DNA of 64,000 nucleotides from Lachnospiraceae bacterium YSB2008 (GTDB taxonomy: Bacteria; Bacillota; Clostridia; Lachnospirales; Lachnospiraceae), in the NCBI GenBank assembly GCA_000687655.1, contig JHWR01000015.1:1-64000 (forward strand), read 5' to 3'. This document shows positions 48,400-56,240 of the stretch, piece by piece (the first letter of the stretch is position 1; each line of letters opens with the position of its first letter). The translations under genes and the position numbers were made by a program. The notes beneath the pieces were generated by a model. It ran no database searches and had not been told where the DNA came from. It saw only the letters and a list, made by a program, of their open reading frames with translations.

Positions 48400-48432
48400 A
48401 CTAACGAAAGTTTTTAGGTATGACTACACCTA

Positions 48433-48461
48433 TTGACTTGGTAGGTGAATGATGATATCAT
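48433..48461 (+). promoter_or_regulatory. Promoter of the metY-cysK leader transcript
   Basis: TTGACT (48433-48438), 17 bp, TATCAT (48456-48461). The transcript should start about 48468 and carries the leader peptide and attenuator. Confidence 0.65.
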
Positions 48462-48513
48462 GCACCCATGTTCAGAAGAGATATGAACAAATACAAAAAG
48501 GAGGCAAAAGGAA

Positions 48514-48657
48514 ATGACTACATTTACAGCATTAAAAAAAGAATACATGATGTGTTGTTGTCGAATGCAGAACTCCCGGGCATACCATATGGCTGGGGCG
48601 TTAGGATGCTTACCTACATGCCTCTTAACAGCACGATGTTGCTGTATCACTGATTAG
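48514..48657 (+). CDS. Cysteine-rich leader peptide (candidate attenuator ORF)
   Basis: 47 codons from ATG 48514 with AAGGAGGCAAAAGGAA in front, a strong ribosome site. The peptide has eight Cys in 47 residues: a Cys-Cys-Cys run at codons 14-16 (48553-48561), single Cys at 32 and 36, and a second Cys-Cys-Cys run at 42-44 (48637-48645), three codons before the stop. It lies 132 bp before metY and 10 bp before a terminator. Clustered codons for the pathway's amino acid just before a terminator are the mark of a ribosome-mediated attenuator. A 61-codon open frame in another phase covers the same bases but has no ribosome site. Confidence 0.75.
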   Translation: MTTFTALKKEYMMCCCRMQNSRAYHMAGALGCLPTCLLTARCCCITD

Positions 48658-48664
48658 AAAGCCA

Positions 48665-48701
48665 TGTGCCCGGGAGGAAAATAAAAACTCCCGGGTTTTT
48701 T
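48665..48701 (+). terminator. Attenuator terminator in the metY leader
   Basis: CCCGGGAG (48669-48676) pairs with CTCCCGGG (48688-48695), then T6. Its left arm can pair instead with 48573-48584 (CTCCCGGGCATA) inside the leader peptide ORF, about 12 pairs with one wobble, forming a longer antiterminator. A third option, CGGGTTT/AAACCCG at 48692-48708, would sequester the right arm. Mutually exclusive folds of this kind are expected in an attenuator. Confidence 0.7.
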
Positions 48702-48788
48702 AAACCCGTTAACGATACATTTAAAACACGATCTTCGCAAAAAACATTAAAACAATAAATTAAAATATAGAATAAGGAGAACAAAAAA

Positions 48789-50069
48789 ATGAGCGATTAC
48801 AGATTTGAAACACTTCAGTTACACGTAGGACAGGAACAGGCAGACCCGGCAACAGATTCAAGGGCAGTTCCTATTTATCAGACAACATCTTATGTATTCC
48901 ATAACAGTAAGCATGCAGCAGACAGATTCGGACTTGCAGATGCAGGTAACATATATGGAAGACTTACAAACTCAACTCAGGATGTTCTTGAGAAGAGAAT
49001 CGCAGCTCTTGAAGGCGGTTCAGCAGCACTTGCACTTGCGTCAGGAGCAGCTGCGATCACATATACAATTGAAGCTCTTGCAGCAAACGGCGGTCACATC
49101 GTAGCTCAGAAGACTATCTACGGTGGAAGCTACAACCTTCTTGCACATACACTTCCACAGTATGGCATTGAAACAACATTCGTAGACGCACATAACCTTG
49201 CAGAAGTTGAGGGTGCGATCAAGGAGAACACAAGAGCTATCTACCTCGAAACACTCGGAAATCCAAACAGTGATATTCCTGATATAGATGCTATTGCTGA
49301 AATAGCACATAAGCACGGACTTCCACTTGTAATAGACAATACATTCGGTACACCTTACCTTATAAGACCTATCGAGCACGGTGCAGATATCGTAGTTCAT
49401 TCAGCTACAAAGTTCATCGGTGGTCACGGAACTACACTCGGTGGTATTATAGTTGAGTCCGGAAAGTTTGACTGGAGCGCAAGCGGAAAGTATCCTAATA
49501 TAGCAGCTCCTAATCCAAGCTATCACGGCGTATCATTCTATGATGTAGTAGGACCTGCAGCATTCGTAACATATATCCGTGCTATACTTCTTCGTGATAC
49601 AGGTGCTACAATATCACCATTCAACGCATTCCTTCTTCTTCAGGGGGTTGAGACACTTTCACTCAGACTTGAGAGACATGCAGAGAATACAAAGAAGGTT
49701 GTAGAATTCCTTTCTAATCATCCAAAGGTTGCAAAGGTTAATCATCCATCACTTGCAGATCATCCTGATCATGCACTTTATGAGAAGTACTTCCCGAATG
49801 GTGGAGCATCTATCTTTACATTTGATATTAAGGGCGGAAAAGATGAAGCTTGGAAGTTTATAGATAACCTTAAGATTTTCTCACTTCTTGCAAATGTAGC
49901 AGACGTGAAGAGCCTTGTTATCCATCCGGCATCTACAACACATTCACAGCTTTCAGAAGAAGAGCTCACTGATCAGGGCATCTTCCAGAGCACTATCAGA
50001 CTTTCTATCGGAACAGAGAATATTGCTGATATCATAGAAGACCTTGAAAATGCATTCAATGCGATATAA
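48789..50069 (+). CDS. metY: O-acetylhomoserine sulfhydrylase (O-acetylhomoserine aminocarboxypropyltransferase)
   Basis: 426 aa. The long insert form of the Cys/Met PLP family: [100 protein letters not shown] (PLP lysine) and the C-terminal [12 protein letters not shown]. It makes homocysteine from O-acetylhomoserine and sulfide. AATAAGGAGAACAAAAAA precedes the ATG. The gene sits behind a leader with a Cys-rich peptide and attenuator, and is followed by cysK. Confidence 0.95.
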
Positions 50070-50106: not shown

Positions 50107-51045
50107 ATGGCTAATATTTATAAGGGAACACTCGGGCTTATTGGAAATACTCCGCTTGTTGAAGTAGTTAATATTGAGAAGGAGCTTGGACTTGAAGCTA
50201 CAGTTCTTGTAAAACTTGAGTACTTCAATCCGGCAGGAAGTGTTAAGGATCGTATCGCAAAGGCGATGATCGAGGATGCAGAGGAGAAGGGACTCCTCAA
50301 GGAAGGTTCTGTTATCATCGAGCCTACATCAGGAAATACAGGTATCGGACTTGCTGCCATAGCAGCAGCAAAGGGATATCGTGCAATCCTTACAATGCCT
50401 GAAACGATGAGCGTTGAGAGAAGAAACATTCTCAAGGCTTATGGCGCAGAGATAGTTCTTACAGAAGGCGCAAAGGGTATGAAGGGCGCTATCGCTAAGG
50501 CTGAAGAGCTGGCAAAGGAGATAGAAGGAGCATTCATTCCGGGGCAGTTCATCAACCCTGCAAACCCAGCAATCCATAAGGCTACAACAGGTCCTGAAAT
50601 CTGGAAGGACACAGATGGAAATGTAGATATATTCATAGCAGGTGTAGGTACAGGCGGAACAGTAACAGGAACCGGTGAATACCTTAAGGAGCAGAATCCA
50701 AATGTCAAGGTAGTTGCACTTGAGCCGGCAGATTCTCCTGTTCTTTCAGAAGGTCACGCAGGCGCTCATAAGATTCAGGGTATAGGCGCAGGCTTCGTAC
50801 CTGACGTTCTTAATACAGATGTATTTGACGAAGTATTCAAGGCTCCGAATGAAGCAGCATTCCAGACAGCTAAGCTTCTTGCAAAGAAGGAAGGAATCTC
50901 TGTAGGTATTTCTTCAGGAGCAGCTCTTTACGGAGCTATCGAATACGCAAAGAAGCCTGAGAACAAGGGCAAGGTTATAGTTGCACTTCTTCCGGACAGT
51001 GGAGACAGATATTATTCAACACCACTTTTCGCAAGTGAGAATTAA
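50107..51045 (+). CDS. cysK: Cysteine synthase (O-acetylserine sulfhydrylase)
   Basis: 312 aa from ATG 50107; the frame is open 21 codons further left but overlaps metY's end. CysK signatures are [37 protein letters not shown] with the PLP lysine, [30 protein letters not shown] and ISSGAA. It joins sulfide to O-acetylserine to give cysteine. Downstream of metY at 37 bp, both probably share the attenuated transcript; end-product (Cys) control therefore makes sense. Confidence 0.96.
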
Positions 51046-55844: not shown

Positions 55845-56240
55845 CTAAACAAAGTCCGCCAGTGTTTTGCTGCGGAAGAATTCGTGAATAGTATTATCGA
55901 ATTCAGTCCACATAGGCAGGGTCTTGCAGATGTCTCTTCGGTCGCATTCATAATTGCAGTCAGCAAGGCATGCGACAGGAGAGAGGGAACCCTCCAGAGT
56001 TTCAATAATTTCACAAACAGTATATTCTTCAGGACGGCGGATGAGACTATATCCGCCGTTCTTTCCGCTTGCGCTCTTAACAAGTCCGGCGGTAACCAGT
56101 TCTTTCATGATAATCTCGAGATATTTCTTCGAGATTCCCTGCCTCTCAGCTATATCCTTAAGCGGAAGCCTTGCGCCCTCGCCATGCTCTGCTATATCTA
56201 TCATAACTCTTAATGCGTAACGTCCTTTAGTTGATACCAT
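55845..56240 (-). CDS. Rrf2-family regulator with IscR-like Cys cluster
   Basis: 131 aa. The start MVSTKGRYALRVMIDIAEHG and HTH with DIAERQGISKKYLEIIMKELVTAGLVKSASGKNGGY are Rrf2. Cys91, Cys95, Cys99 and Cys105 lie in the loop where IscR holds its [2Fe-2S] cluster (CLADCNYECDRRDIC), so an Fe-S or redox sensor is likely. It might be IscR, NsrR or CymR-like. An inverted repeat lies in its own promoter region at 56301. It ends 24 bp from the CDF gene's stop, on the other strand. Confidence 0.88.
   Translation of the reverse strand: MVSTKGRYALRVMIDIAEHGEGARLPLKDIAERQGISKKYLEIIMKELVTAGLVKSASGKNGGYSLIRRPEEYTVCEIIETLEGSLSPVACLADCNYECDRRDICKTLPMWTEFDNTIHEFFRSKTLADFV

Follow-up and report, generated by a model that had tools for sequence, protein, structure and literature searches.

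The DNA window that we analysed is a stretch of 64,000 nucleotides from Lachnospiraceae bacterium YSB2008 (contig JHWR01000015.1, positions 1 to 64,000 of the forward strand). It carries an operon formed by metY and cysK, and the DNA in front of these genes contains a short open reading frame (ORF) rich in Cys codons, a set of pairing strands and an intrinsic terminator, as follows:

48428-48446 (no strand assigned): predicted palindromic operator, Rrf2/CymR-like, ACCTATTGACTTGGTAGGT, overlapping the -35 box
48433-48461 (+): predicted sigma-70-type promoter, TTGACT-17-TATCAT, from a consensus scan
48499-48504 (+): Shine-Dalgarno (SD) sequence AGGAGG of the leader ORF, read from the sequence
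48514-48657 (+): leader peptide ORF, MTTFTALKKEYMMCCCRMQNSRAYHMAGALGCLPTCLLTARCCCITD, 47 codons with 8 Cys, kept in relatives
48553-48561 (+): first Cys run, TGT TGT TGT, the putative sensor codons, at Cys positions common to homologous loci
48562-48567 (+): CGAATG (Arg-Met), extremely conserved (CGA in 63/77 and ATG in 67/77 covariance-model loci)
48573-48582 (+): antiterminator 5' strand P1a, CTCCCGGGCA, pairing over 10 bp with TGCCCGGGAG at 48667-48676
48589-48594 (+): antiterminator 5' strand P1b, AUGGCU, pairing over 6 bp with AGCCAU at 48660-48665; covaries, 83% paired
48595-48624 (+): internal hairpin P2, GGGGC (48595-48599) with GCCUC (48620-48624); covaries, 92% paired
48637-48645 (+): second Cys run, TGT TGC TGT; Cys codons after P1a are enriched in homologous leaders
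48660-48676 (+): antiterminator 3' strand, with the P1b part at 48660-48665 and the P1a part at 48667-48676
48669-48701 (+): intrinsic terminator, 8 bp stem with arms CCCGGGAG (48669-48676) and CTCCCGGG (48688-48695), then T6 (48696-48701)
48789-50069 (+): metY, O-acetylhomoserine sulfhydrylase (TIGR01326, 632.8 bits; cut-off 495)
50107-51045 (+): cysK, cysteine synthase A (TIGR01139, 446.9 bits; cut-off 351)
55845-56240 (-): Rrf2-family regulator, 131 aa, CymR/IscR-like, the genome's only Pfam Rrf2 match above cut-off

The initial annotation had described a 47-codon ORF with eight Cys codons, a strong ribosome site and two runs of three Cys codons, followed by an intrinsic terminator ahead of metY-cysK; the ORF with all these attributes was confirmed and the terminator, separated from the ORF stop codon by a gap of 11 nt, was located where it had been placed. 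It had also proposed that the left terminator arm can pair instead, over about 12 bp, with a strand inside the ORF. This alternative pairing is real, and its extent is larger than had been thought: P1a contributes 10 bp, P1b pairs as well, and the two together enclose the P2 hairpin. Positions 48669-48676 are at once the 5' arm of the terminator and part of the antiterminator 3' strand. The fold of the segment 48500-48701 has a z-score of -4.0, a value that none of 200 shuffled sequences reached.

Homologous leaders were found at 14 of 30 metY loci, drawn from genus and order, when the genes were collected by a MetY search of 61 genomes and the DNA upstream of them was read; these leaders share the peptide core C(C)CRM..SRA..MAG. 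A first covariance model, built from 12 homologous leaders, gave matches in 38 of 61 genomes of the same genus and in 25 of 392 genomes from the order. A second model, derived from 96 sequences, had hits in the family (38 of 298 genera), the class (6 of 223) and the phylum (4 of 267). In addition, a scan of named genomes with a 24-base pattern matched at least 118 stretches, about seven of which would be expected by chance as estimated from pattern length and collection size; the locus L167 resembles such a chance match. Carriers of the pattern include Anaerovibrio lipolyticus DSM 3074, Anaerovibrio sp. JC8 and Lachnospiraceae AC2029 and AB2028, as well as metagenome-assembled genomes labelled Ruminococcaceae, Saccharofermentans, Blautia and Christensenella. 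The 3' partner strand, which is not part of the pattern, was found downstream in 71 of 81 pattern matches. The distribution of the element is patchy but wide, with frequent gains and losses: a relative whose MetY is 93% identical (L019) has no Cys leader. At L147, G457:C36 and G923:C8, one genome was seen to carry two or three copies, either in tandem or no more than tens of kilobases apart. The YSB2008 genome itself contains a second copy (L098; G000:C3:117963-118104), and this copy stands before a gene for a single protein, a fused SBP_bac_3 and NlpA (MetQ-like) lipoprotein.

Comparison of these loci backed the antiterminator. Across P1a, P1b and P2 in the 96 sequences, whose alignment was fitted to the structure, 92.8% of the cells pair and 19 of the 22 pairs are changed on both sides; double-changed cells number 122, as opposed to 28 in shuffles (none of 500 being as good) and no more than 36 in slid controls. 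A gap-free test of P1a on 122 nonredundant loci gave 98.1% paired cells, with double changes in 8 of 10 pairs, and P1a alone accounts for 25 double-changed cells compared with 2.7 in shuffles. Of 118 loci, 112 have a terminator that is built on the same 3' strand and runs into a T-tract. Judged from the aligned loci, antiterminator and terminator are thus to be regarded as mutually exclusive structures, the former backed by covariation. A local protector hairpin (P0), in which the antiterminator 5' strand pairs with the 5' strands of P1b and P2, can be formed in most loci, and its pairs showed no covariation. A further candidate pairing connects CGAAUG with CAUUUG near the terminator arm; it is 82% complementary in register, its 5' side hardly varies, and a stalled ribosome would block it. 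Neither of these two pairings is made part of the proposed structure.

A conserved sequence with a compact, covarying structure and a nearly invariant CGAAUG adjoining it is also what a ligand-binding riboswitch might look like, one that would recognize Cys, homocysteine, O-acetylserine or a similar compound and in which the ORF would be coincidental. The ORF, however, does not behave like a bystander. An SD-led frame is open across P1a in the Cys frame at 138 of 159 loci, compared with 6 and 3 loci in the other two frames, and ORF starts cluster about 56 nt upstream of P1a. The number of Cys codons per leader varies from 1 to 5 in whole codons, the majority of the conserved positions are paired, and Rfam holds no match. 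We consider a riboswitch very improbable.

Counted from the antiterminator, codon -5 specifies Cys in 131 of 144 loci and codon -6 in 109 of 144; over codons -5 to -14, Cys makes up 22.9%, with TGT and TGC alternating at the Cys positions, and 11 nt usually separate the last Cys codon from the antiterminator downstream of it. Since the search pattern forces TGYCGAATG, the statistics for codons -3 to -5 were rechecked on model-found loci alone; the covariance model also contains this motif, so that the independent evidence consists of the frame test, the terminator 3' arm and the downstream genes. Taking the window sequence (48562-48567) together with all homologues, the Arg codon that follows the Cys run is almost always CGA. 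Translation is predicted to extend well into the structure: none of the ORFs ends in the 25 nt that follow the P1a start, and in all loci but one, which is probably mis-registered, 19 nt or more remain between the stop and the end of the terminator arm. At least one further Cys codon follows P1a in 143 of 160 leaders (mean 1.8, with 0.23 expected at an assumed Cys content of 1.2%), often as Arg-Cys-stop.

Conservation of an encoded peptide raises the question of whether the peptide itself might be the signal, either as an arrest peptide of the type [CW]CRM or as a functional Cys-rich small protein. The CRM residues are indeed very conserved, and some leaders contain only one Cys, preceded by Trp or Tyr. 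Yet the conserved SRA..MAG residues are the very ones that the pairing strands encode, C-termini and lengths vary widely, and CRM is exchanged for CSM, CRQM, CCM or CHR in relatives that keep the Cys codons. A peptide signal therefore seems to us a quite improbable explanation.

The genes that follow the leader give an independent view. The next gene falls into a reference class in 152 of 161 loci, the classes having been drawn from the locus set itself; several of the nine loci without a class run off their contig. MetY is the most frequent (83 loci), accompanied by NlpA/MetQ-type lipoproteins (19), fused SBP3 and NlpA proteins (14), cystine-type SBPs (6), amino-acid permeases (6) and MetN (4). 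Cystathionine-type PLP enzymes, CysK, glutamate-cysteine ligase, a GST-domain protein, a PepT-like peptidase, a SAM-dependent methyltransferase, an NMT1-type binding protein and sulfopropanediol dehydratase were found as well. The classes are almost entirely those of sulfur acquisition genes, the peptidase and the methyltransferase being less directly linked. At one locus (L256) the leader precedes a glycyl radical enzyme resembling (2S)-3-sulfopropanediol dehydratase, a placement that links the regulon to sulfonate use.

More than 140 distinct loci share this ORF, pairing and terminator, with covariation, and their combination is far beyond chance. In relatives, the Cys codons, the ORF frame, the SD sequence, the antiterminator pairing and the terminator are all conserved, the pairing with covariation. 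We interpret the leader, with a probability of roughly 0.88, as a cysteine-responsive, ribosome-mediated transcription attenuator that would turn the sulfur genes on when Cys is short. The leader ORF would be translated by a ribosome trailing RNA polymerase. With Cys-tRNA(Cys) scarce, this ribosome would stall on the Cys codons just 5' of the antiterminator strand; positions 48573-48594 would then be free to pair with 48660-48676, thereby occupying the left arm of the terminator, and the polymerase would continue into metY-cysK. With Cys plentiful, the ribosome would advance and occupy 48573-48600 while the terminator is being made, and transcription would end. The ORF, the Cys codons, the exclusive and covarying antiterminator and terminator, the spacing and the sulfur-gene regulon can be read in the DNA sequences as such; from them we infer the stalling, the direction of control, its timing and the termination of the leader RNA in cells.

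The expected direction is largely given by the geometry. A ribosome extends forward by about 12-13 nt from its A-site codon. P1a begins 14 nt on from the last Cys codon when that codon is in the A site; with 11 nt between the end of the Cys run and the antiterminator, a stalled ribosome would leave the antiterminator free, and read-through is expected. One or two codons past the Cys stall, the antiterminator is covered. The proposal that ribosome position on the Cys runs selects between terminator and antiterminator, made in the initial annotation, is supported by conservation, covariation and the downstream sulfur genes. Its concern that a ribosome on the first run would cover the antiterminator strand does not hold: with 48559-48561 in the A site, the leading edge reaches about 48571, before 48573. 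The ambiguity about the direction of control that it had rightly pointed out is now largely settled by this spacing, a stall at the Cys run being predicted to give read-through.

The folding evidence consists of masked-fold classifications; an energy difference calculated between the two states seemed unreliable, perhaps owing to an ineffective constraint, and was set aside. In these classifications, a ribosome on the last Cys codon left the antiterminator in 141 of 157 loci, whereas a ribosome on P1a gave the terminator in 133 of 157 and the antiterminator in none. Without a ribosome, the leader (taken from the antiterminator on) folds at equilibrium in favour of the antiterminator in 141 of 157 loci. 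With the ribosome at the stop codon, the antiterminator is still allowed in 124 of 156 loci, and in the window leader the terminator wins. Because P1a is freed after the ribosome has passed and the equilibrium favours the antiterminator, either timing or a protector structure is needed for termination. Termination probably depends on the ribosome covering P1a to P2 as the terminator emerges; a local protector hairpin is possible. An untranslated leader is predicted to read through, the opposite of the behavior of trp.

Cysteine may not be the only amino acid that this scaffold reads. A tentative extension of the attenuator model is that the leader senses the charging of both Cys and Met tRNAs, the ratio of the two kinds of codon before the antiterminator matching the supply that the downstream genes provide. 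At codons -5 to -14 the share of Met is 15% when read in the ORF frame and 1.1-1.9% in the other frames, and leaders of MetN/MetQ-type transporters contain more Met codons than those of Cys-type genes (2.2 vs. 0.7; p = 1e-5) and fewer Cys codons (2.0 vs. 3.1; p = 0.0015), these p-values being uncorrected for the shared descent of related loci. Mixed leaders are exemplified by MMYMCMRRM, MCMCMCRM and MCMMRM. On the other hand, an ATG just 5' of the Cys run is common in all gene classes, and Met starvation acts on initiation too. Three leaders before MetN (L089, L090 and L092) contain one Cys and four Met codons of the MMYMCMRRM type and are candidate Met-sensing attenuators. It is conceivable, although we would not yet lean on it, that this attenuator is portable and that its family adapts the sensor codons to each controlled gene, with purely Cys runs before cystine and cysteine genes and mixed Met/Cys runs before methionine importers. 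If true, one conserved RNA scaffold spread over Clostridia and Negativicutes would read both sulfur amino acids, and among the members of the family would be one of the first transcription attenuators based on Met codons.

The trp, his and leu attenuators of Proteobacteria and Actinobacteria likewise have a short SD-led ORF with codons for the amino acid of the pathway just before an antiterminator that excludes a terminator, and these defining features are found here: an SD-led ORF, clustered pathway codons, an intrinsic terminator, an exclusive antiterminator with covariation and the spacing of the stall codons. In contrast to those systems, the amino acid is cysteine, the hosts are Clostridia and Negativicutes, sequence and structure are conserved across many genes and families, a possible protector hairpin lacks covariation and the ribosome-free fold favours the antiterminator. 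In mycobacteria, too, sulfur genes are known to be preceded by Cys codon runs, and Cys leader peptides are noted in PMC1262725. The mycobacterial polycysteine ORFs are leaderless, are described as translation attenuation and have no conserved terminator hairpins (PMC1262725, PMC13236596; for polycysteine leaderless ORFs, Canestrari et al., 2020, as cited in PMC13236596). The element described here, with its SD-led ORF and conserved intrinsic terminator, falls outside that class. The uORFC-8-2 motif resembles it in having tandem Cys codons in an upstream ORF, a structured RNA with a terminator end and a proposed ribosome-mediated attenuation (PMC8632094). That motif occurs only before cysS and only in Rhodobacterales, with the Cys codons inside the first stem (PMC8632094), whereas our leaders precede many sulfur genes in Firmicutes and place the Cys codons upstream of the stem; cysS was absent from the genes downstream of the homologous leaders.

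Among Firmicutes, the control of cysteine is commonly attributed to T-boxes, SAM riboswitches and CymR. The first two also act in cis on amino-acid or sulfur genes through premature termination, and neither the T-box (RF00230) nor the SAM riboswitch (RF00162) model matched the metY-cysK leader. In the source genome, the T-boxes stand before leuA-, pheS-, ACT-domain- and aspS-like genes and the SAM riboswitch before metK, the gene names being taken from reading the proteins. Searches of Rfam 15, Pfam and NCBIfam returned nothing for the leader itself, and no description of the leader family was found in the open literature that was searched. The leader thus appears to represent trp-type ribosome-mediated attenuation in a form new to Rfam and to the open literature searched. 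Judging by their genome sequences, many gut and rumen Clostridia appear to employ leader-peptide attenuation across an entire regulon, with one conserved scaffold that would serve metY, cysK and the cystathionine enzymes, the importers of cystine and methionine, the synthesis of glutathione and the use of sulfonates. The element could name sulfur-regulon genes of uncultured organisms from DNA alone, and the natural series of leaders with differing Cys and Met counts offers a test bed for relating ribosome position to termination. The metY leader of one relative (L020; G026:C56) departs from the scheme: it has 12 Cys codons (MSYALINKSYEYMCSNRMCCCRIGSCRMCCCDMCNDCID) and neither antiterminator nor terminator, and is perhaps subject to translational or Rho-dependent control.

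A second layer of control, exerted by a CymR-like Rrf2 repressor at the leader promoter, is likely. Exact ACCTATTGACNNNNTAGGT operators occur only three times in the source genome, namely at the two leader copies and before a glutamate-cysteine ligase gene (L286, 1500-1520; G000:C3:123525-123543), which has no Cys leader. The pattern CCTA-N9-TAGG is found upstream of 128 of 181 leaders, compared with 0.2% in shuffles. The Rrf2-family regulator encoded at 55845-56240 (-), 5 kb from metY-cysK, is the probable ligand of the operator. In a relative, a divergent Rrf2 gene matches Pfam Rrf2, with IscR and CymR below cut-off. A similar CCTA...TAGG palindrome is present in the DNA upstream of the Rrf2 gene in the window.
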